Part shown: positions 889 to 56,897 of the stretch, one piece after another
How positions within the stretch are numbered: position 1 is the first letter of the stretch
How the letters are laid out: each line of letters opens with the position of its first letter
Source: Aneurinibacillus soli
Lineage (GTDB): Bacteria > Bacillota > Bacilli > Aneurinibacillales > Aneurinibacillaceae
Length of the DNA: 64,000 nt
Reading direction: 5' to 3'
NCBI RefSeq assembly: GCF_002355375.1
Contig: NZ_AP017312.1
Location: forward strand, 3,384,001-3,448,000
Notes under the pieces: model-generated
What the model saw: the letters and a program-made list of their open reading frames with translations, nothing else
Told to the model about the DNA's origin: nothing
The model's database searches: none
Made by a program: the position numbers and the translations under genes

Positions 889-2853
889 TTAATTAAACCT
901 ATAATTAAGGACATTTATATCCCTATTTTCTTTTAGCTTTTTGATAAAGATTGATTGATTCAAATGCCATTTTAAAAACATATCTCTTAAATTCACATTA
1001 TAATCCTTACTATGTTCGTATAATACTTGGACTAGCAATCTGTTGGAATACTCTTTAACCTTTGCTACATAATGCGGAAGCAACGTATTATCATAGTGCG
1101 CATTATGTACAATCTTATTTCTGTACCTGTAAATATATAAAATATCGTCTTGGATTTGTTTTATTCTTTCTTCAATAACTTTAAGGGCAAATTTATTTTG
1201 ACCATAAAATTTATCAACATAAGTGATTCTATCCTTAATTACTCTACAATCTGTATACGTATTTAGTTCATCTAAATTTTCAACAAAGTCATCTAATCGA
1301 ATAAACTCTCCCTCTTCCACTTTTAAACCACACTTCTTCTTAATTTCCTCTGGCAATTCAATTGCTCTTCTCGCACTCTTTTCCTTAAACGAAAACACCT
1401 CATTATTCACTAAATTACCTATATATTGGAACAACTCTGCGCATATACCATTCTTATAACTCATTATTTCTATACACGGTATAAGTTCTTTAGCCAAAGT
1501 ATAGGTAGTTTCTTTTTCCTTGTTGAGTATTAACTGCCTTCCCTCTTCAGTAAAGTCTTTAAAATCCATTAGGTTTTCAATTGCTACCCAATAATTAAGT
1601 AATTTATCTTCTGCTTTAATTGATTCCTCTCCTTTTCTAAACCAATGCAATGAATCAACAATTTTTTTCTCTATAAATGATTGCTTTTCTTGATTCCTAT
1701 ATAAATAACTACCTACTTTCTCAAAAATAAGTTGATATTCTTCACCTATGTATACCTCGCTCATATTAACTGAGTATTGGACTTTTAGTCTTTCATGAAT
1801 ACCAGATTCATATCCTCCACTAGCCCTTAGCTGAAATTCTTCATCTAAGATTAAGCAGTCATCTTTAACAACCTTAAAATCAACCTTACTTTTGTAAAAA
1901 CATCTTAATAAATCAAAAGCCTTTTCAATCTTATTAATAGCCGTGTACCTTGCAACTCTATCATCAATGGCATTTACCCAGACAGCAGCATTAAAAATAT
2001 GTTCATCTTCCCTGAAAAAAATCTCTCTATCTTTTGCTTCTTCTGGCTGAGAGATATATTTATCTACCCTTGGAGAGTAAAAATGGACTTCGCCACATGT
2101 AAATCCTTCGTATGCTATCAATCCTTCAATCTGGAAAATCACTAGCATGTCAACAGATTCTTTCTCAAAATAGTTCTCAAAATCGGTTAATCTTTCTTCT
2201 ACACTTAGATTATCCATCTTATTTTTAATTGAATTAGTATAGTCATCCTCACTTTCGAATTCCCCTATATCCAAATTGTGAGGGTAATCCGTTATTATGT
2301 ATTTCCCATGTAAAATATACTTTTTAAAAATGTTAACAGGCATCTGCTTTATATTTTTTAAATCAAATCCTTTAAGCATTAATTCAACAATCAGACTTTG
2401 GCTTAGACACAATATTCTTTCATACGAAGAATCAGTCACCTCTTTGGATAATAAAATTGACTTTAACAGTTTATATGTTTCCTTTAAATAACTACCTTCC
2501 GTAAAAAATTCCCTAATACGTTTACATACACTTATTAAGTATTCATTTTTATCCGAATTTAAATAGTCCCTTATAACTTTAAATTCAATTTCATAAATTC
2601 TCTTTATAATTTCATCTTCATCTAAAAAACGGTTAATTTGTTTTAAGAAATAACTCTTGTTTTCTTTATTTCTCATTTTATTAGAAACTATTTCATCAAT
2701 AATATCATTCACTATGGTTTGAGGATTAATTAGGCTTAAGCCATAAGAATTTAAATTAAGATTCCCAATTAATTCTCCCCAAATATCTATCCAATACTTA
2801 ATTTTATCGTTTATAACTCCATCCTCATAATCATCCCAAAGAAATAACTCCAT
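889..2853 (-). CDS. large HEPN-motif protein (ApeA-like candidate defence protein)
   Basis: A 654-aa soluble protein, AT-rich and unlike its backbone neighbours. Near the C-terminus (about residue 578) it has RNKIVH, the R-x4-H motif of HEPN ribonucleases, and upstream LLNYWVAIENLM, which resembles the helix found in ApeA-type HEPN domains. The N-terminal 350 residues are not recognised. I chose the ATG at 2853, seven codons inside the longest frame, because AAGGTGAGG lies 6-7 nt upstream of it and the outer ATG has no RBS. It is the last gene of a co-directional cluster with a five-helix membrane protein and a small protein. HEPN proteins of this size often act as abortive-infection RNases; here that role is inferred, not shown. 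Alternative: a HEPN fold without nuclease activity. Confidence 0.6.
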   Translation of the reverse strand: MELFLWDDYEDGVINDKIKYWIDIWGELIGNLNLNSYGLSLINPQTIVNDIIDEIVSNKMRNKENKSYFLKQINRFLDEDEIIKRIYEIEFKVIRDYLNSDKNEYLISVCKRIREFFTEGSYLKETYKLLKSILLSKEVTDSSYERILCLSQSLIVELMLKGFDLKNIKQMPVNIFKKYILHGKYIITDYPHNLDIGEFESEDDYTNSIKNKMDNLSVEERLTDFENYFEKESVDMLVIFQIEGLIAYEGFTCGEVHFYSPRVDKYISQPEEAKDREIFFREDEHIFNAAVWVNAIDDRVARYTAINKIEKAFDLLRCFYKSKVDFKVVKDDCLILDEEFQLRASGGYESGIHERLKVQYSVNMSEVYIGEEYQLIFEKVGSYLYRNQEKQSFIEKKIVDSLHWFRKGEESIKAEDKLLNYWVAIENLMDFKDFTEEGRQLILNKEKETTYTLAKELIPCIEIMSYKNGICAELFQYIGNLVNNEVFSFKEKSARRAIELPEEIKKKCGLKVEEGEFIRLDDFVENLDELNTYTDCRVIKDRITYVDKFYGQNKFALKVIEERIKQIQDDILYIYRYRNKIVHNAHYDNTLLPHYVAKVKEYSNRLLVQVLYEHSKDYNVNLRDMFLKWHLNQSIFIKKLKENRDINVLNYRFN

Positions 2854-2944
2854 AAGACCCCTCACCTTATCCATTTAATTCCATGTAAATGTATTACATA
2901 AAAACCGTGCCTTTATGCATTTTTTACATACTAAAATCAATCTA

Positions 2945-3514
2945 CTACCTAATAATATCCTTCAGGGGATTCAATAGGAAATATGCCAAAAACATGTGTA
3001 ATAATGACACAATAATTATAGTTATTTGCATAGTTAGCCTTATCATTGTTTCCTTCTCTATAATTTTAAACTTGTCGTTGTTTATTGATTGAACACCTTC
3101 TTTTATTGAGATATACAAATCAGTAAGCACCTCCATATAACCAACTAGAAATGTTATAAAAATGGTATATCCGATTTGCTCCCCTTGTTTCAAAGTAGAC
3201 GATAGAATAAAAATCACAATCCATACACTAAAGGCAAGCTTAATCAAATTTTTTACAACGTTTATAGTCACCTTTCCTGTAAATGCTATCATGATAAACA
3301 AACCAATATCCATCAAATAAAAGGTTTGAAGCCACTTCATAAGTTCAGAAAAACCTTGGCTTCTATACAGATAAAACCAAATATATACAGAAAAGAATAC
3401 TACCAGTATTGTTAATACATTAATGCTTACGCCTAGTATTTTATTGTCCCTTTTAATTTTTTTATTTTTTCGATTCTTTTCTACTCTGGTTTCTATTAGT
3501 ATCACTCCTCTCAA
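2945..3514 (-). CDS. multi-pass membrane protein, unknown function
   Basis: About 185 residues with a basic N-terminus (RVEKNRKNKKIKRDNK) followed by roughly five hydrophobic segments (about 27-50, 63-80, 88-107, 113-130 and 158-182). I do not recognise the family. The start is uncertain: the outermost TTG (3514) overlaps a GAGAGGAG RBS-like stretch, a GTG three codons later follows that stretch too closely, and no ATG lies in range. It sits 91 nt upstream of the HEPN-motif gene in the same orientation, so co-transcription is likely. That pairing could mean a membrane partner or effector of a defence module. The composition is AT-rich, like the HEPN gene. Confidence 0.55.
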   Translation of the reverse strand: MRGVILIETRVEKNRKNKKIKRDNKILGVSINVLTILVVFFSVYIWFYLYRSQGFSELMKWLQTFYLMDIGLFIMIAFTGKVTINVVKNLIKLAFSVWIVIFILSSTLKQGEQIGYTIFITFLVGYMEVLTDLYISIKEGVQSINNDKFKIIEKETMIRLTMQITIIIVSLLHMFLAYFLLNPLKDIIR

Positions 3515-3551
3515 AACAAAAAAATTCCATATAACAGAAAAACAACTCTAG

Positions 3552-3797
3552 TTATCTACAATTCGCTATTACTTCCCTCTTCTTAAATCTGTAGTTGTTT
3601 AGCCAATAAATCAAAGCATCCGCATCATAGCAAAGTCCGTAATTCTCGCCATCTTCACAGACCCAGTATGGATGGTCAATGCTTCGGTCATATAACCAAG
3701 ATAGGAACTCATCTCTTAGCTTGTTTATTTTTCTGCCGACTTTGGACGGACACTTCATAACCTGTTGATGTTGATAGAAATCAATAACGATGTACAT
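3552..3797 (-). CDS. small conserved-looking protein, unknown function
   Basis: Encodes 81 residues rich in Trp, Tyr and charged side chains (starts MYIVIDFYQHQQ; contains SWLYDRSIDHPYWVCEDGENYGLCYDADALIYWLNN). The ATG at 3797 is preceded by AAAGGTGGG at good spacing. An in-frame upstream start adds nine residues but has no RBS. There is no signal peptide or membrane segment. Two cysteines and several acidic residues are visible, but no motif I can name. It is 37 nt upstream of the membrane protein gene and reads in the same direction, so it may be the first gene of the accessory three-gene cluster. Confidence 0.5.
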   Translation of the reverse strand: MYIVIDFYQHQQVMKCPSKVGRKINKLRDEFLSWLYDRSIDHPYWVCEDGENYGLCYDADALIYWLNNYRFKKREVIANCR

Positions 3798-3922
3798 ACA
3801 GCTACCCACCTTTAAGTAATTCACTCAGTTACGATTATACCATTTATAGGTAATCGAATTGGCTGTAATTTTCAAGAATGTGGGAGCTGATGTACTCTCG
3901 GTATCAGAAGGAACAAAGGCAT

Positions 3923-3951
3923 CAAAAAAGAGGGCATTTTCAGCCCTCTTA
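3923..3951 (-). terminator. terminator of the fixABCX operon
   Basis: AAGAGGGC and GCCCTCTT form an 8-bp stem with a T-rich tail on the minus strand, 65 nt downstream of the fixX stop. Confidence 0.8.
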
Positions 3952-4015
3952 ACTGGTCACATCTATTGAATTTCGGTCGATTTTTTCAATAAAACTGGTA
4001 CTACTTCCTTTCTTA

Positions 4016-4312
4016 TTACGCCAGCCTAAACACAATCCCATGCCCACCTTTTGGATACTCCCATTTAATATTTTCATATGGGCAGCCAATCCGACATGAT
4101 CCACACTCGTGGCATCCTTCATACCCGACCGACATCCGCTTTCCTTCCCATTTATACACCTCACCCGGACAGAACAACGTGCACAACTTATCGGGACAAC
4201 TTGTCGCACATACATCATTATTAAGCACATGCAGATGCGACTGGCTATCAGCACGGTAGCGCAGCAAATACTGCTTTTCTTCCAGTGTGTTCGTACGCGG
4301 TACCAGACTCAT
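4016..4312 (-). CDS. fixX: FixX, ferredoxin-like partner of the ETF-quinone oxidoreductase
   Basis: A 98-aa iron-sulfur protein. CATSCPDKLCTLFCP (mid) and CHECGSCRIGCP (C-terminal half) are the cysteine motifs of FixX/ETF-QO small subunits, and the ending GHGIVFRLA is also typical. The ATG at 4312 overlaps the TAA of fixC (TAATG) and the RBS AAGGTGATG lies inside the end of fixC, so translation is probably coupled. An in-frame ATG six codons upstream is possible but badly placed. It should pass electrons between FixC and its redox partners at the membrane. It is the last gene of fixA-fixB-fixC-fixX, followed by a terminator. Confidence 0.9.
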   Translation of the reverse strand: MSLVPRTNTLEEKQYLLRYRADSQSHLHVLNNDVCATSCPDKLCTLFCPGEVYKWEGKRMSVGYEGCHECGSCRIGCPYENIKWEYPKGGHGIVFRLA

Positions 4313-5607
4313 TATTTCATCACCTTCCATGCGCGATAAATGTCCTGCACCATGCCAAGTTTGCTTTTGCCTTCTGTCAAACTACGGAAAATCTTCTTCT
4401 GCTTATCCCGCTTCGGCACACCATCAATCGTAAAGAACTGGCTCGCTGCCTTGTTAATCATCGGAATATAGTCATTAAAATATTGCGGATGCGTCTCAAA
4501 CGTATGCGTCGCATCTTTATATTTCTTCAAATCACGTCCAACAAAGCTGTCAAGCAGGCGAACTCGATACGTATCAAGCATATTCTCTGAGAAATCATTT
4601 GCTTGCTTCGCCAAGATGATCGTCTCCGCTGCCAGTCGCCCAGCCGTCATCGCCATGTTGCTGCCTTCGCGGTGAATGCCATTAACCATCTGTCCCGCAT
4701 CTCCGACAAGCACAACGCCATTGCCGACAATTTTTGGCATAGCGTTATAACCGCCTTCTGGTATGAGATGCGCTGCATATTCCGCTGGCTCGCCACCGCG
4801 AATAAGCGGACGAACGATCGGATGATCTTTCAAATAATCAAGCAAGTCGTACGGGCGAAGGCGGTGCTTAATCATGCCTGATAGTGTAGCCCCAACACCA
4901 ATATTGATGCTTTCTTTATTCGTATAAATAAAACCCGTGCCGAGAATCCCTTTCGTCGCATCTCCAAAAATCTCAATCGTCGTCCCCTGGTTCGGCTCTA
5001 AATTAAATCGATCTTCGATTTTCTCAGCTGGCAGATCGATAACTTCCATAACAGCAAGTGCAACATCGCTCGGCTTAAACTCTTTATGGAAGCCGAGTGA
5101 CTTGCCGAGCAACGAATTGACGCCATCTGCTATGACAACCACGTCCGCATACACATCGCCATCCGGTCGATCGGTCCGTACACCGATGACACGTCCATCT
5201 TCGACAATGCACTCAGTTACAACCGTTTCATTAATGAGCAACGCCCCTACTTCAACCGCCTTACTGGCATACCACTGGTCAAACTTGGCACGCAGCACTG
5301 TAAAGTTGTTATACGGCTCTTTGCTCCATTCAAGTCCCTTGTAGCCGCTTGTAAAAACCGATTCCTCTCCCATCATCCAGAAACGTTGCTCCACAATCGG
5401 ACGTTCGAGCGGCGCTTCTTTATAGAAACCAGGAATAATCTCATCCATCTGGTGGCGATACAATACGCCGCCCATTACGTTTTTCGAACCCGGATACTCC
5501 CCACGCTCAATAAGCAACACGTTCAATCCGGCTTTTGCCATTACATAAGCTGCTGAAATACCGGCCGGACCAGCTCCCACGACAATCGCATCAAATTTCT
5601 CAGACAT
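4312..5607 (-). CDS. fixC: FixC, electron transfer flavoprotein:quinone oxidoreductase
   Basis: A 431-aa flavoprotein beginning MSEKFDAIVVGAGPAG, with the GxGxxG FAD-binding motif at about residues 11-16 and a second FAD motif, VLVGDAGQMVNG, around residue 300. Length and pattern match FixC/ETF-QO, which takes electrons from reduced ETF and hands them to quinone. A longer frame continues upstream in register with etfA, but the ATG at 5607 gives the family N-terminus and overlaps the etfA stop by 8 nt. The FeS cluster found in mitochondrial ETF-QO is supplied here by the separate FixX protein. It lies between fixB and fixX in one operon. Confidence 0.93.
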   Translation of the reverse strand: MSEKFDAIVVGAGPAGISAAYVMAKAGLNVLLIERGEYPGSKNVMGGVLYRHQMDEIIPGFYKEAPLERPIVEQRFWMMGEESVFTSGYKGLEWSKEPYNNFTVLRAKFDQWYASKAVEVGALLINETVVTECIVEDGRVIGVRTDRPDGDVYADVVVIADGVNSLLGKSLGFHKEFKPSDVALAVMEVIDLPAEKIEDRFNLEPNQGTTIEIFGDATKGILGTGFIYTNKESINIGVGATLSGMIKHRLRPYDLLDYLKDHPIVRPLIRGGEPAEYAAHLIPEGGYNAMPKIVGNGVVLVGDAGQMVNGIHREGSNMAMTAGRLAAETIILAKQANDFSENMLDTYRVRLLDSFVGRDLKKYKDATHTFETHPQYFNDYIPMINKAASQFFTIDGVPKRDKQKKIFRSLTEGKSKLGMVQDIYRAWKVMK

Positions 5608-6931
5608 GAACTTTTTCACCGCCTTTGACTGCTTTTTTGAATGCTTCGATAAGCTTCGGCACCACTTCGAATGCATCGCCGACAATACTGTAGGTCGCGA
5701 CATTATGAATGGCCGCGTTCGGGTCCTTGTTAATCGCAATGATAAATTCCGAGTTCTGCATGCCCACAATATGCTGCACAGCTCCCGAAATCGCAATCGC
5801 AAAATAAATTTTTGGTGTTACCGTTACACCCGTCTGGCCGATCTGGTAATGATGGTCGATCCAGCCTGCCTCTACCGCATCACGAGTCGCTCCCACGCTT
5901 GCATTGATTACTTCTGCAAGGTCATAGCAAAGCTGGAATCCTTTTGCATCGCCAAGCCCCTTGCCACCTGCGACAATGATATGCGCTTCATCCAGCTTGA
6001 CGCGCTGGCTCGTCTCGCGAACGATCTCAAGTACACGCGTCTGCAAATCTTTTTCGTGCATACCGAGCGTCTCGTGAATAATCTGTCCGGTGCGACCTAC
6101 TTGCCGTTCTAGTGCCTTCATCACCTTAGAACGTACAGTCGCCATCTGCGGACGATGGTTCTTACACAGAATAGTTGCCATAATATTGCCGCCGAATGCC
6201 GGACGACTCGCTTCAAGCAAGCGCTGCTCGGCGTTCACATCCAGCATCGTGCAGTCAGCTGTCAGCCCGGTAGCAAGCTCAGTCGCGACCGCGCTTGATA
6301 AATCCTTGCCGTTTGGAGTCGCGCCATATAGAATCATTTCCGGCTTATACTTGTTGCACAAGTCAACCGTGCCTTTCATATACGTCTCCGAACGATAATC
6401 CGTCAGCAACGGATCGTCAATCATATATACAATGTCCGCTCCATATTCAAAGCATGTCTTGGCAAGCGACTCCACATTATGTCCAAGCATAAAGCCTGCA
6501 AGCGGCGCGTTCATCTTATCAGCAAGACGGCGCCCCGCTCCCAGAAGCTCAAGTGACACGCCTACGATCTCACCATCCATATGGTCAATGTATACCCATA
6601 CTCCTTCATGATCGGCAAACTTGTCTGTCCGCCCTTGCGCCGCAGGCTTCGCTTCTGCTACCGGATCTGTGGAAGACGATTCCATCGCGGCAGCAGGGGC
6701 GGTTTCCGATTTTTTCTCGTCTACAACAGGAGGTGGAGCGGCTTTCTTCGCTTTCACTGGATTCGGTAGACTGATTGCCTCAGTCGGGCATACCGAGATA
6801 CAATCCTGGCATTCTTCACATTTTGCTGTATCAACCTCGCATTTGTCCGGTCCAAGGTAAAGCGCACTTACCGGGCATGTATCTACGCATGAGCCGCATG
6901 AAATACAAGCGGCGGAGATGGAAACTGCCAT
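5600..6931 (-). CDS. fixB: EtfA/FixB fused to an N-terminal 2x[4Fe-4S] ferredoxin domain
   Basis: A 443-aa ETF alpha subunit with an extra N-terminal module. Cys 9, 12, 15, 19 and Cys 38, 41, 44, 48 form two CxxCxxCxxxCP motifs of a bacterial ferredoxin. A low-complexity Ala/Pro/Lys linker (about 57-100) follows, and then the ETF alpha domain starts at VWVYIDHMDGEIVG. The C-terminal FAD domain carries SVGATRDAVEAGW and QIGQTGVTVTPKIYFAIAISG, the FAD-binding signatures. Ordinary ETF alpha is about 320 aa and lacks the ferredoxin. Ferredoxin-fused EtfA occurs in several anaerobic or bifurcating ETFs, so this subunit may exchange electrons with low-potential carriers. It is 2 nt from fixA and overlaps fixC. 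Confidence 0.93.
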   Translation of the reverse strand: MAVSISAACISCGSCVDTCPVSALYLGPDKCEVDTAKCEECQDCISVCPTEAISLPNPVKAKKAAPPPVVDEKKSETAPAAAMESSSTDPVAEAKPAAQGRTDKFADHEGVWVYIDHMDGEIVGVSLELLGAGRRLADKMNAPLAGFMLGHNVESLAKTCFEYGADIVYMIDDPLLTDYRSETYMKGTVDLCNKYKPEMILYGATPNGKDLSSAVATELATGLTADCTMLDVNAEQRLLEASRPAFGGNIMATILCKNHRPQMATVRSKVMKALERQVGRTGQIIHETLGMHEKDLQTRVLEIVRETSQRVKLDEAHIIVAGGKGLGDAKGFQLCYDLAEVINASVGATRDAVEAGWIDHHYQIGQTGVTVTPKIYFAIAISGAVQHIVGMQNSEFIIAINKDPNAAIHNVATYSIVGDAFEVVPKLIEAFKKAVKGGEKVHV

Positions 6932-52820: not shown

Positions 52821-53016
52821 CGGGGTGATGGGGGCAAAATGCAGACTGTTCTTTTCGGCAAGGGAGCGGGGACTGCCCGCTTAGTCTATGTCCGGGTGGA
52901 CAGGTCAAACATCTGGGTATTTCAATGATGGAGACAATGACCTGTCTAGTTCACCCGAACATAGACACGCTGGGTACGAAAAGAAAGGTCATGTCATTTT
53001 GCCCCCATCCCCCACA
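52821..53016 (+). repeat. structured element, family B, copy 1
   Basis: About 196 nt with perfect outer arms GATGGGGGCAAAATG (52827-52841) and its complement (52995-53009), and a long inner hairpin between GTCTATGT (52884) and ACATAGAC (52966) continuing through CGGGTG/CACCCG and ACAGGTCA/TGACCTGT. The apical region holds AAACATCTGGGTA (52907-52919), which is shared in inverse orientation with copy 2 (56692-56897). GTTCTTTTC/GAAAAG arms occur in both copies. It begins at the stop codon of the FtsA-like gene. No coding capacity. Confidence 0.7.
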
Positions 53017-53041: not shown

Positions 53042-53059
53042 AAAAAAGAAGCTGTGGCC
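53042..53059. terminator. left half of a bidirectional terminator split by the transposon
   Basis: AAAAAAGAAGCTGTGGC here and GCCGCAGCTTCTTTT at 56616-56630 would form a perfect stem with a small CTGC loop if the transposon were removed. It would have terminated the convergent FtsA-like and ytxJ genes. Confidence 0.75.
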
Positions 53060-53065
53060 TGCGCC

Positions 53066-53084
53066 TAACGGGTTCAGTTAAGAG
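53066..53084 (+). repeat. left terminal inverted repeat of the transposon
   Basis: TAACGGGTTCAGTTAAGAG, identical to the complement of 56591-56609; flanked outside by GCCTGCGCC (53057-53065). Confidence 0.9.
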
Positions 53085-53312
53085 GTTGAAAAATTAAAAT
53101 GGCAGATAAAATGGCATTCCAACTGGCAACAGTTTTGGAACGCCATTTTCTTTGATATCTTAACATTTTTATAAAATTGGCATCCAAATTGGCAGGGATA
53201 TATATAGGGGTTGTAGAAGATGGAAATACTTTATGGAAAGGGATGATTCGTTGCCAAATGAATAGTCAATTTTAATGACACTTGTGATGTCAATTTGAAC
53301 AAGGAGGTTGTC

Positions 53313-53570
53313 ATGAAATTTATCGAACCAAAACCACGATTGGAACAAAAATCCACATGGCATGTATCGGAGCAAACAAAAGCGACGGTCAAATACTACG
53401 CCGAGTATACAGGCTATAGTGAAGATGAAGTGGTTGATCAATTCCTTTTGCAACTTCGGGATGACCCCAAGTTCCTAGAGTGGTTGCAAAGCAAACGACG
53501 CAACAAACGAGCCTTTTCCCAAATGTTTGCCGATGCCAAAACGGAGGGGGAACAGATTGGGGAAACTTAA
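53313..53570 (+). CDS. 85-aa transposon protein, possible DNA-binding accessory
   Basis: Small charged protein starting MKFIEPKPRLEQKSTWHVSE, mostly helical (VKYYAEYTGYSEDEVVDQFLLQLRDDPKFLEWLQSKRRNKR), with a basic patch near the end. The pattern of a short strand followed by two helices would fit a ribbon-helix-helix-like DNA binder, but I cannot assign a family. ATG at 53313 follows AAGGAGG at 5 nt. Its end overlaps the transposase start by 14 nt, so the two are translationally coupled, as is common for two-ORF insertion sequences. It is the first gene inside the left inverted repeat. Confidence 0.65.
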   Translation: MKFIEPKPRLEQKSTWHVSEQTKATVKYYAEYTGYSEDEVVDQFLLQLRDDPKFLEWLQSKRRNKRAFSQMFADAKTEGEQIGET

Positions 53571-55506
53571 ACGACTCGCTACTAAAGAAGATGAAATCGT
53601 ACACATCGAACTACCTGTATCTGATACAGAGAGAAATTCGAGGCAGACGGACTATCTCCTGCTAACACCCTTGCAATTTGCCAAGAAATATCGACATGCG
53701 CTATTTCAACCTGTAACCGTTCAATATAAGGAGCAATCTCACTCCATTCAGATGAATCGCTGTACCAATCCGTTTTGCAAATGGTTTGGGCAGGACCAAA
53801 CTCGCTTTACGGAAGTCAAAGGAAAACCGTCCCGTTATAAATTGGGTGGGAGTATGAAACACCGAAGCCAGATGATTACCTGCAATCCTGATCCGATTCA
53901 CCCAACAAGAGGAATGACATGGGATTGCGTGGCACAGCCATTTTCCAATTGGTCGATTGCCGAAGAAATTGCTCGTCTTGCTACTCTTGATCAAGTAAAA
54001 GACAGAACTCCTGACTATGTATTTCATCGAGACTCTTGCACTAAAATCATGACAACACCTTTTGATCAACCTAAAGATTTTTATAAACAAGGGAAAAGCA
54101 AAAGCAATTCACAGAAATGGCAGTGTAAAACGGGCAGGAAAATGACAAATGTGCTACCGACTACAAGAGAGAACTTTAGCTACCGACAAAAGAGAAATGA
54201 GATTCTTCCGCTATTCGCTGCTCTGTTGTTAAACCGAACGCCTGTAAAGCGAAGTTGTGAAATCCTAGGGATCGGTTCAGAAACGTATTACCAAAAATCG
54301 GAATGGCTGTATCGGAGATGTTTGGAGTTTTTGGAACGGTACGAGAAAAAAGCCTTTCAGTCAAAACGGTTCAAAAGTGTGTGGGTCAATACCGATAAAT
54401 TGATTTACTATCTGAACAACGTACGGAAACGAGGGAAAGGCTCACATCGGTACGATAATGTTGAGGAAAAGCATTTTCCCACACACATTGTGATTAGCAG
54501 TGATGTGGATACCCGTTATGTATTTCGTTCTGATGTGGCATATGATTGGCAAGTTCGTCTCTCCGATATCGAAACCGATACCTTTTTGTACAAAGAAGAT
54601 CATGTGAATCTGTTTGCCCGCAAAAACGCTCGACTACGATTCTCATACTGTCCGCAACCACCTTCTCCACACGATACGCAATCAACATTGGAATACGTTC
54701 AGGAGCTGAATGAATTTGAACGAAGAGATCAGTACATTGACGGGCTTCATGTAAACTCCACCTATACCACGATCGCACACTTTTGGCTCATGAAACAGAT
54801 GATTCACACCAACGAATGGCGATTTGTTACCGACGAGGATTTCTCCATTATGACGGCGTTGTTTCGTGTATTTGCAAGAGAAGTAAGACGGGCAGATGCT
54901 CATCACTTCCTATGCAAAATTGATCGTACAAAGAGCCTAAAAGATGCGTTTACCGAGTATCAAGATACCATTCGTGATTTAGAAGTGTGGGGTGCGAGAA
55001 AAGGCTACAGCGGTTCTGTCCGAAAGTTGGCGTTTTTGTGGCTATCCGAATTTTTAAAGCATCACACCTTTCATGAAGAGGTAAACGTAGGCGGAAATGT
55101 CTATCGAAAAGAAGCATCCACGTTCATGGAACATCCGCTGCCTTCGATTGATCAGGGAGTTCGTCTTGTCGACTGCACAACGGATGTATCGTCCTTTGAC
55201 ATTGCTCACATTGCCAACATGATCTTAAAGGTCAATGACAAAGCGACGAGTTCCTTTATGCAACAGATTCGAAGAAGGCTATCCATTTTAGAACGACCGT
55301 TGGTGACCGCTCGAAAAGAAGGGAAAAGCTATATTTATTCCAACTTCAACCCGAAATACGCACAATATGCTGTCACGATTTTACGGACGTATTACAACTT
55401 CTGTATGACGTATAAAACGAGCGATGGGGAACGACTAACCCCTGCCCAACGAATCGGCATTACCCATAAGCGATTTACAATGAAAGACATTCTTTACTTT
55501 AAGTAA
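53557..55506 (+). CDS. 649-aa putative transposase of the 3.5-kb element
   Basis: Large protein with an N-terminal Cys-rich region (NRCTNPFCKWFG...CNPDP...WDCVAQPFSNWSIAEEIARLA), reminiscent of the zinc finger plus HTH of IS1 InsA. A second HTH-like stretch (NRTPVKRSCEILGIGSETYYQKSEWLYRRCLEFLERY) follows. The core may be a DDE fold: acidic candidates are Asp in WVNTDKLIYYL, Asp in HIVISSDVDTRYVF and a later Glu/Asp pair. I cannot fix the triad. The TTG at 53557 follows GGAGGGG by 6 nt and overlaps the 85-aa gene; an upstream in-frame TTG lacks an RBS. It is encoded between perfect inverted repeats with a 9-bp target duplication, so transposase is the best call. Confidence 0.7.
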   Translation: MGKLKRLATKEDEIVHIELPVSDTERNSRQTDYLLLTPLQFAKKYRHALFQPVTVQYKEQSHSIQMNRCTNPFCKWFGQDQTRFTEVKGKPSRYKLGGSMKHRSQMITCNPDPIHPTRGMTWDCVAQPFSNWSIAEEIARLATLDQVKDRTPDYVFHRDSCTKIMTTPFDQPKDFYKQGKSKSNSQKWQCKTGRKMTNVLPTTRENFSYRQKRNEILPLFAALLLNRTPVKRSCEILGIGSETYYQKSEWLYRRCLEFLERYEKKAFQSKRFKSVWVNTDKLIYYLNNVRKRGKGSHRYDNVEEKHFPTHIVISSDVDTRYVFRSDVAYDWQVRLSDIETDTFLYKEDHVNLFARKNARLRFSYCPQPPSPHDTQSTLEYVQELNEFERRDQYIDGLHVNSTYTTIAHFWLMKQMIHTNEWRFVTDEDFSIMTALFRVFAREVRRADAHHFLCKIDRTKSLKDAFTEYQDTIRDLEVWGARKGYSGSVRKLAFLWLSEFLKHHTFHEEVNVGGNVYRKEASTFMEHPLPSIDQGVRLVDCTTDVSSFDIAHIANMILKVNDKATSSFMQQIRRRLSILERPLVTARKEGKSYIYSNFNPKYAQYAVTILRTYYNFCMTYKTSDGERLTPAQRIGITHKRFTMKDILYFK

Positions 55507-55631
55507 CGGGCTTCTTGTGTTTAGAAGCTCGTTTTTTAGGTTTTTAACTTCTTCAACAAAATAAATGGTAATATTATCAAAAAGTCTTCGTTAAAGAATA
55601 TCGTTTTATTAATTTATTTGGAGGTGAGGAT

Positions 55632-55931
55632 TTGAAAAATATAAAATTTATTGCAATAATTCAATTATTATTTTTTTTATTACTTGGCTGTTCATTAAAC
55701 CCAGATTATAGCGCAGTGGATAGACAAGGTGAAATTATTGAGGTTGATAAGGGAAAGGAAAGAATTTTAGTTGATGACAAGAAGAATGGACAAATTTGGG
55801 TTGATATTTCTAAATTGAGCGATAAAGATAAATTTCATAAGCCCTTAGAGGTTATTGTTTGGTTAGATGGAGATGTAATAGACGGTGAACCACAGGTGGG
55901 AATTGCCAAAAGAGTTGATGTTGTGAAATAA
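55632..55931 (+). CDS. small lipoprotein, DUF3221/YobA-like, transposon passenger
   Basis: A 99-aa AT-rich gene. Residues 1-20 are a lipoprotein signal ending LLLGC, so Cys20 would be lipidated and the product sits on the outer face of the membrane. The mature part (EIIEVDKGKERILVDD...GQIWVDISKL...PLEVIVWLDGDVIDGEPQVGIAKRVDVVK) is a small beta-rich domain resembling DUF3221 lipoproteins. Starts with TTG after GGAGGTGAGGA. It lies inside the transposon, 125 nt after the transposase, as cargo. Function unknown. Confidence 0.65.
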   Translation: MKNIKFIAIIQLLFFLLLGCSLNPDYSAVDRQGEIIEVDKGKERILVDDKKNGQIWVDISKLSDKDKFHKPLEVIVWLDGDVIDGEPQVGIAKRVDVVK

Positions 55932-55994
55932 AGCGATTCAGGCGAAGGGTTCATTTTTTAAATCAGTAAAAAATTACTCAGGGGGAGTTTGAGC

Positions 55995-56486
55995 TTGAAG
56001 AAAAAAGGATGGATAATCGGAGGATTGATTTTTTTGTTACTTTCCGTGGGATTGTACAATGCGTATCAAAAATTTTGTACACCTTATGGAGCTTGGGAGA
56101 TTAATTGGAAATTCAAAAGTCCCTCACCTTCCGAAATGAATGATGTAATCAACACCATAGGAGGATTTCCTGCTGAGGGAGAAACGTATACGATTTGTAA
56201 ATACAGCGATTACAAGTTGAAAAAAATTTTGAAAACAAATAATTGGGCTAAAATGGACGATAAGTCTTATGACATGATTAAAAAGAAGGTAAATCATTTC
56301 CAAAACACTGTAAGTAGCATTCACATTGGACAAGAAGAAAAATTCAAAAAGATTTTTCTAAATAACCCTGTTACATTCACGAAAGACTCTCTTTACTTTC
56401 TTAAGTCAAACAGCGATGGGAGTTATTTTTTGTCTATTCTCAATCCAAATGAAAATAAAGTATATATTTTAGAGTGGGTTCAATAA
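55995..56486 (+). CDS. membrane-anchored protein of unknown function, transposon passenger
   Basis: A 163-aa protein with one N-terminal membrane helix (about 6-23, WIIGGLIFLLLSVGLYNAY) after a KKKG start, and an exported domain of about 135 residues rich in Lys, Asn and Ser. No motif recognised. The TTG at 55995 has GGGGGAG seven nt upstream; a TTG two codons earlier is too close to the RBS. AT-rich like the lipoprotein gene 63 nt upstream, and probably co-transcribed with it. A terminator follows, still inside the transposon. Together they look like a surface-protein cassette carried by the element. Confidence 0.6.
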   Translation: MKKKGWIIGGLIFLLLSVGLYNAYQKFCTPYGAWEINWKFKSPSPSEMNDVINTIGGFPAEGETYTICKYSDYKLKKILKTNNWAKMDDKSYDMIKKKVNHFQNTVSSIHIGQEEKFKKIFLNNPVTFTKDSLYFLKSNSDGSYFLSILNPNENKVYILEWVQ

Positions 56487-56494
56487 TACAAATT

Positions 56495-56523
56495 AAAAGG
56501 GTGGCAATCGCCACCCTTTTTCG
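56495..56523 (+). terminator. terminator of the passenger genes
   Basis: AAAAGGGTGGC-AATC-GCCACCCTTTT, 11-bp perfect stem followed by T. Confidence 0.9.
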
Positions 56524-56590
56524 ATGAAAAAATGCTTCAAATTTACTGTCAGTAATCGAGCCAAAAAAGCCGTCAAACAGGAATTTCCAA

Positions 56591-56609
56591 CTCTTAACTG
56601 AACCCGTTA
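56591..56609 (-). repeat. right terminal inverted repeat of the transposon
   Basis: CTCTTAACTGAACCCGTTA, the exact complement of 53066-53084; flanked outside by GCCTGCGCC (56610-56618). Confidence 0.9.
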
Positions 56610-56615
56610 GCCTGC

Positions 56616-56630
56616 GCCGCAGCTTCTTTT
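56616..56630. terminator. right half of the split bidirectional terminator
   Basis: GCCGCAGCTTCTTTT, complementary to the left half at 53042-53059. It now lies on the ytxJ side of the transposon. Confidence 0.7.
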
Positions 56631-56691: not shown

Positions 56692-56897
56692 GTCGGAGAG
56701 GAAGGGGGCGGGAGCAAGTGAGCATGTTCTTTTCCCTTAGGAGCGTCGGGGAACAGAGGGCGAATAGATCGGCAACTGTCTCCCGCATTGAGCTACCCAG
56801 ATGTTTTGCCGATCCGCCCGGCGTGACCCGGAGCGGCCGTTGTGCTTCCCCGCAGAAAAGAACCAGCGAATGGCTCACGCCCCCTTCCTACTCCGCC
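56692..56897 (-). repeat. structured element, family B, copy 2
   Basis: About 206 nt. Outer arms GGAAGGGGGCG (56700-56710) and its complement (56878-56888), followed inward by GTTCTTTTC/GAAAAGAAC and CGGGGAA/TTCCCCG arms. TACCCAGATGTTT at 56794-56806, within CATTGA...CCCGG, matches the complement of copy 1. Arm sequences differ between copies but keep pairing. It lies just past the ytxJ stop (56910). In the ancestral layout the two family B copies would have flanked one terminator in inverse orientation, the same arrangement as family A at 46.8-47.4 kb. Confidence 0.7.

Follow-up and report, generated by a model that had tools for sequence, protein, structure and literature searches.

Insertion across a terminator hairpin by a cargo-carrying transposon of Aneurinibacillus soli and the target sites of its Tn7491-like relatives

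In the genome of Aneurinibacillus soli, a stretch of 64,000 nucleotides (assembly GCF_002355375.1, contig NZ_AP017312.1, positions 3,384,001 to 3,448,000 of the forward strand), which we call the window and whose first letter is position 1, contains at 53066-56609 a transposon of 3,544 bp that divides an intergenic terminator hairpin of its host into two halves. The locus raises the question of whether the split hairpin is only the trace of one insertion or represents the kind of site in which this transposon and its relatives are usually found. A previous reading of the window, made from the letters and their open reading frames (ORFs) and hereafter called the sequence-only reading, had used the split terminator solely as proof of insertion; this use was correct, whereas the hairpin is also, across the family, the rule by which the target appears to be chosen.

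Insertion and choice of target

The coordinates of the element given by the sequence-only reading were reproduced. The two terminal inverted repeats (TIRs), the left one being TAACGGGTTCAGTTAAGAG (53066-53084, plus strand) and the right one lying at 56591-56609 (minus strand), are identical at 19 of 19 positions, and the inverted arms continue to 27 nt at 93%. The target-site duplication (TSD), GCCTGCGCC, is present at 53057-53065 and at 56610-56618, with 9 of 9 positions identical. The left half of the host terminator, AAAAGAAGCTGTGGC (53044-53058, the last 2 bases being within the TSD), and the right half, GCCGCAGCTTCTTTT (56616-56630, the first 3 bases being within the TSD), pair across the element, with a pairing score that was reached by none of 300 random positions of the window. 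A natural empty site is offered by G006, a genome of the same genus, in which locus L165 has the hairpin intact and, with one substitution, a single element-free copy of the target. The transposase gene is single-copy in its own genome (one contig, 4.12 Mb) and is absent from all 6 other genomes of the genus. From these comparisons we regard as certain that the element is a genuine insertion; the exact ends and duplication, and the restoration of the terminator when the element is removed, had been claimed before and were both confirmed, the second also by the uninterrupted hairpin of the empty site.

For the relatives of the element, ends were searched by TIR similarity together with a TSD matching at 8 or more of 9 positions, favouring TAA and GTTC in the TIR; the presence of a hairpin was not a criterion. 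Ends were found for 52 of 88 loci. Among the remaining 36 loci are fragments, contig ends, L004, whose site is the same as that of L024, and four elements with a 10-bp TSD. After removal of two duplicates (L047, equal to L015, and L048, equal to L020) the set consisted of 50 distinct sites with 50 different flank pairs, from Bacilli and two proteobacteria, with element lengths from 1,171 to 11,034 bp. The TSD was identical at 9/9 positions in 47 sites and at 8/9 in 3, and left ends started with TAA in 47 of the 52. We considered as hairpin score the pairing of the left with the right flank around the TSD, with a threshold of at least 20. In L136 (minus strand) one family member, at 2519-5749, is nested in another, at 1231-5861; the inner one lies on a hairpin axis, with a 9-bp TSD of its own, and scores 35. 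The ends first found at this locus enclose the nested element, and of the two only the outer one (score 18) was counted among the 50.

Precisely, 42 of the 50 sites scored at least 20, all with the axis no more than 1.5 bp from the TSD centre, while 2.1% of random positions in the same loci (300 per locus) reached this threshold. When bulges were allowed, the flanks paired better than shuffled arms in 47 sites (p ≤ 0.05) and in 37 (p ≤ 0.01). The centre was then not assumed: in a test on 42 sites, which excluded six dfrG carriers, L153 and L154, the strongest hairpin within 35 nt lay at most 2 bp from the TSD centre in 38, against about 8% expected if positions were uniform, the exceptions being L006 (3.5 bp off), L125 (3 bp), L119 and L144. 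The 36 sites with a full-length transposase form 28 clusters at 90% identity, and the hairpin rule was found in 25 of these. Across the sites collected, the duplication of 9 bp (sometimes 10 bp) is usually centred on the two-fold axis of a hairpin resembling an intrinsic terminator, and targeting of this axis is, on the pairing of the flanks, very strongly supported.

It could be objected that insertion is random, or merely intergenic, and that the pattern reflects survival, terminators being common between genes. All our data come in fact from surviving genomes, and the locations look harmless, since the genes on either side converge in 22 of 48 sites and diverge in 5 (with crude ORF calls, and two sites lacking one neighbour). 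However, a dyad scoring as high was found at just 184 of 5,994 random intergenic positions in the same loci (3.1%), and survival leaves unexplained the centring within 1-2 bp, so that we consider this explanation very improbable.

A different possibility is that the transposase reads A- and T-tracts spaced about 20-30 bp apart on a bendable, symmetric duplex, and that the stem is incidental. The tract positions are the most conserved feature of the sites, with A at -10 in 43 of 50 and T at +11 in 46 of 50; in 41 sites AAAA occurs no more than 20 nt to the left, and in 46 TTTT to the right, as in intrinsic terminators, and the weak-stem sites L014, L024 and L144 retain both tracts. On the other hand, L118, L143 and L150 lack the adjacent A4 tract, the T4 tract or both, yet their stems are perfect or near-perfect, and in nearly all sites the tracts lie anywhere from 3 to 13 nt away on the left and from 4 to 15 nt on the right, whereas the axis stays within 1.5 bp in 42 sites. 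We judge it unlikely that the tracts are what is read and the stem plays no part.

Transposase, OrfA and the proposed mechanism

The transposase of the window element is a protein of 649 amino acids (53557-55506, plus strand) with two Cys clusters and a helix-turn-helix (HTH); it begins with TTG at 53557, a start that agrees with the family alignment. The small ORF that the sequence-only reading had placed before it is OrfA (85 amino acids, 53313-53570, plus strand), which overlaps the transposase start by 14 nt. Searched alone, the 649-residue protein gave nothing usable in Pfam, NCBIfam, PHROGs and PDB sequence searches. In all 31 aligned members of the family D280, D330, D426 and E579 are invariant; conserved residues follow the order D, D, E of DDE-type enzymes, and D280, D426 and E579 would be the catalytic triad. 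Cys 69, 74, 109, 161 and 190 are also invariant, while Cys124 is kept in 25 of the 31, His157 in 27 and Cys193 in 30.

IS1 is a short element, with the InsA/InsB' frameshift organisation and its own characteristic end sequence. IS1-like zinc-finger and HTH features had been attributed to the window protein; they are found in its relatives, while the 649-residue protein itself matches no transposase model of Pfam or NCBIfam. The NCBIfam IS1 model NF033558 matches 25 of the 31 members at E ≤ 0.1 (best 1.9e-10) over a zinc ribbon followed by the HTH (in L007, at profile positions 5-138 of 199), and the Pfam InsA zinc ribbon gives weak matches in 10 of the 31. Considering also the 9-bp TSD, and a relative annotated as 'transpos_IS1 superfamily', the element might be taken for a true IS1-family element, only longer. 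We regard this as improbable: when eight members were scanned singly the best score was 41 bits against a cut-off of 100; the family protein is three times as long as that of IS1; the window element, of 3.5 kb, encodes its transposase in one uninterrupted frame of 649 codons, in place of the InsA/InsB' frameshift; the ends of the family, with their left TAA, differ; and cargo and terminator targeting belong to the family.

OrfA is conserved among 9 aligned members. Its predicted model is helical, with a predicted local distance difference test score (pLDDT) of 65, and a fold search with this model returned 56 matches at E ≤ 10 and 0 at E ≤ 0.001. The weak matches are often CopG and antitoxin-type chains, with a faint ribbon-helix-helix resemblance, and a regulatory, DNA-binding role is probable for OrfA. 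Target selection is unlikely to depend on it, because the two proteobacterial elements with defined ends leave no space for OrfA and still sit in hairpin-like sites. Elements from Pseudomonas and Marinobacter, of 2,010 and 2,043 bp, contain the transposase alone.

Several results weigh against a transposase that selects hairpin axes. Eight of the 50 sites score below 20 (L006, L014, L024, L119, L125, L136, L144 and L160), and in three of these (L014, L024 and L119) the pairing stays below significance when bulges are allowed. The elements with a 10-bp TSD agree only in part, with scores of 32 (L046), 24 (L017), 17 (L123) and 11 (L121), and L138 has inverted flanks and no duplication. As for the enzyme, the AlphaFold model built with 11 sequences has a pLDDT of 47 and does not confirm an RNase-H/DDE fold; the 31-member profile found in the PDB only weak zinc-finger chains, at E 0.25 or worse, and no relative. 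Finally, the window copy alone has G at residue 193 (54133-54135), the position of the final Cys in the IS1-like zinc ribbon, and because of this replacement it may be inactive.

With these points taken into account, we assign a probability of about 0.85 to the explanation as a whole, namely that the family targets the axes of terminator hairpins and that a transposase dimer reads the symmetry of the target. The dimer, holding both TIRs, would recognise the inverted-repeat symmetry and not a fixed sequence, either as an extruded hairpin or cruciform or as a duplex palindrome plus the flanking A and T tracts. Strand transfer, catalysed by D280, D426 and E579, would then take place at two points that lie symmetrically about the axis and are separated by 9 bp. 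Insertion would seldom harm the host, because the target sits just past genes.

Cargo, carried hairpins and adjacent repeats

The intact members in Bacilli have the gene order OrfA, transposase, cargo, and the layout of this widespread family is TIR, OrfA, a transposase of about 645 amino acids, interchangeable cargo, TIR. In the window, the first cargo gene (55632-55931, plus strand) encodes a lipoprotein of 99 amino acids, whose similarity to DUF3221 is weak (E 0.0019, below the cut-off) and for which the 15 genomes searched in the order gave no further match. The second (55995-56486, plus strand) encodes an N-terminally membrane-anchored protein of 163 amino acids, assigned to no family, whose only homologues in the 398 Bacilli genomes searched are distant ones, in 8 genomes other than its own. 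The description of the element as a transposon with cargo, and not a simple insertion sequence, is borne out by these two ORFs; the idea that surface-protein cargo is unusual was dropped, because our cargo survey showed lipoproteins and membrane proteins to be common in the family.

This survey comprised 78 cargo ORFs of at least 75 amino acids, of which 30, plus the two of the window, were covered by the Pfam scan. Above the cut-off we found ABC transporter parts (L010, L143), an alpha/beta hydrolase (L044), a PadR regulator (L045), a DUF4871 lipoprotein (L131), a GNAT protein (L136), a sigma factor with SpoIIP (L146), VanZ (L153), an erythromycin esterase (L154) and a HIT protein (L155). In L045, L139 and L144 (the last by eye) a PadR-type regulator stands beside a HAAS-like membrane protein, as one module on different backbones. 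By a crude lipobox rule, at least one lipoprotein is present in 14 of the 50 elements, and 16 of the 78 cargo ORFs are positive compared with 23 of 410 flank ORFs (90-400 amino acids); this apparent excess is only suggestive, because the ORF size limits differ between cargo and flanks. A crude transmembrane rule was discarded as too lenient, 233 of the 410 flank ORFs being positive.

Other copies with different cargo, which the sequence-only reading had proposed to look for, do exist. L010 and L016 are 97% identical over bases 1-2542 and 74% over about 142 bp at the right end, with no similarity reported in between, and L120 and L122 are 88% identical over bases 1-2410 and share a further 52 bp at the right end. 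These alignments show cargo exchanged between near-identical backbones. Cargo is probably gained when a different right end, on the far side of an adjacent gene, comes into use, as proposed for TnSha1, an element considered below. We also observed two atypical copies. In L005 (5521-7151, in a Streptococcus suis phage record) the TIRs, the dfr cargo and a separate TSD are intact and the transposase is cut to 97 codons, possibly by later deletion or, alternatively, the element possibly moved in trans. L138 (2526-5554, reading strand) lies between the arms of a long inverted repeat, perfect in appearance, in which TIR-like ends are present.

Many copies carry terminator-like hairpins of their own near the ends. 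Strong hairpins (at the left end, those scoring at least 28) were found in the left 200 bp of 33 of the 50 elements and in the right 200 bp of 29, and in none of 44 mid-transposase controls. In the window there is one near the left end (53094-53163, score 36) and another, followed by a T-run, after the cargo (56495-56520, score 28). Such hairpins may stand in for the host terminator that is lost.

Taken together, the relatives are cargo-swapping transposons with terminator-loop targeting and, apparently, a DDE transposase. We advance only tentatively a wider proposal: a distinct DDE superfamily that would pick its targets by DNA shape, the transposase dimer recognising the hairpin or cruciform extruded at intrinsic terminators. 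Insertion would be symmetric about the loop, the host losing one terminator and receiving the two of the element, and from this neutral position the transposons would carry individual chromosomal genes (for lipoproteins, transporters and resistance enzymes) from one bacterium to another and exchange them. If true, a symmetric hairpin-targeting transposase might serve for harmless intergenic insertion.

Outside the element, two stretches of about 190 bp lie at 52823-53013 and 56699-56889, closed by inverted arms of 19 and 17 nt, and share, in opposite orientation, a 57-nt core that is 75% identical. A search of the genome with the first gave 8 matches, among them the first and the second themselves, and no Rfam family reached its threshold; at the empty site of G006 the first is present and the second is missing. 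These stretches belong to a repeat that is dispersed and apparently mobile.

Relatives and known systems

A tblastn search with the window transposase (1e-5) matched 115 plasmid records, among them 90 of Enterococcus and 9 of Staphylococcus, all at less than 60% identity; 95 of the 115 cover at least 80% of the protein. Most of the plasmid matches listed are one relative, 51.2% identical over residues 1-649, and the annotation of those listed is mostly 'hypothetical protein' or 'insertion element protein'. With fragments and the source genome itself counted, matches to the transposase were found in 16 of 398 Bacilli genomes, a sample spread evenly over the class, in 36 of 261 and 61 of 193 genomes of two families, in 2 of 39 of a third, and in 2 of 15 genomes of the order. 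Distant relatives, at 20-26% identity, occur on plasmids of Pseudomonas, Acidovorax, Rhizobium and Marinobacter; as for viral contigs, one of two scans gave three loci and the other none. A little-annotated family of gene ferries in Bacilli is thereby described.

The relative at 51.2% adjoins dfrG, in the same layout, on a Staphylococcus aureus plasmid and in a staphylococcal phage. According to the accessible part of PMC10763498, the dfrG element is named Tn7491 (also spelled Tn4791 there), was first found within Tn6198, and has the TIR TAAGTAGTTCAGTTTTGGAGTACAAAA and a 9-bp duplication. The window element shares with it a transposase homologous over the full length (51% identical), a TIR starting TAAnnnGTTC, a 9-bp TSD and the order OrfA, transposase, cargo, and from these alignments its kinship with the Tn7491 group is certain, which places Tn7491 in the family layout given above; the element is thus not of an undescribed kind, as it had first looked, because this full-length relative is a registered transposon. 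It is not Tn7491 itself, since its cargo is a lipoprotein and a membrane protein in place of dfrG and the TIRs differ (TAAGTAGTTCAGTTTTGG... in Tn7491, TAACGGGTTCAGTTAAGAG in the window). Copies of Tn7491 at L002, L005, L015 and L118 also lie on hairpin axes, whereas L014 and L024 have no clear hairpin. No mention of terminator targeting occurs in the accessible part of PMC10763498, those of PMC10969869 and PMC3937734 add nothing on it, and we found no description of it for this group in the open-licence literature, a scope outside which most subscription journals fall. The sites analysed here give the dfrG transposon and its relatives a landing rule.

Terminator stem-loops are also the targets of group IIC introns, which, in the part of PMC7923331 available, are described as retroelements that insert beside or into the stem-loop, with no transposase and no duplication. 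The nearest precedent for terminator targeting is IS1272/TnSha1, of the IS1182 family. As described in the available part of PMC4923244, it inserts at hairpins, many of which are terminators, and shows little preference for sequence, and TnSha1 can carry a neighbouring gene; it makes blunt cuts in the stem and partly deletes the hairpin, leaving no duplication. The window element has, in contrast, a 9-bp duplication centred on the loop, keeps both halves of the stem and has a transposase of another kind, with no Pfam match. The targeting proposed here would be a second route, unlike that of IS1272, to the use of terminators by transposons as places where insertion costs little.

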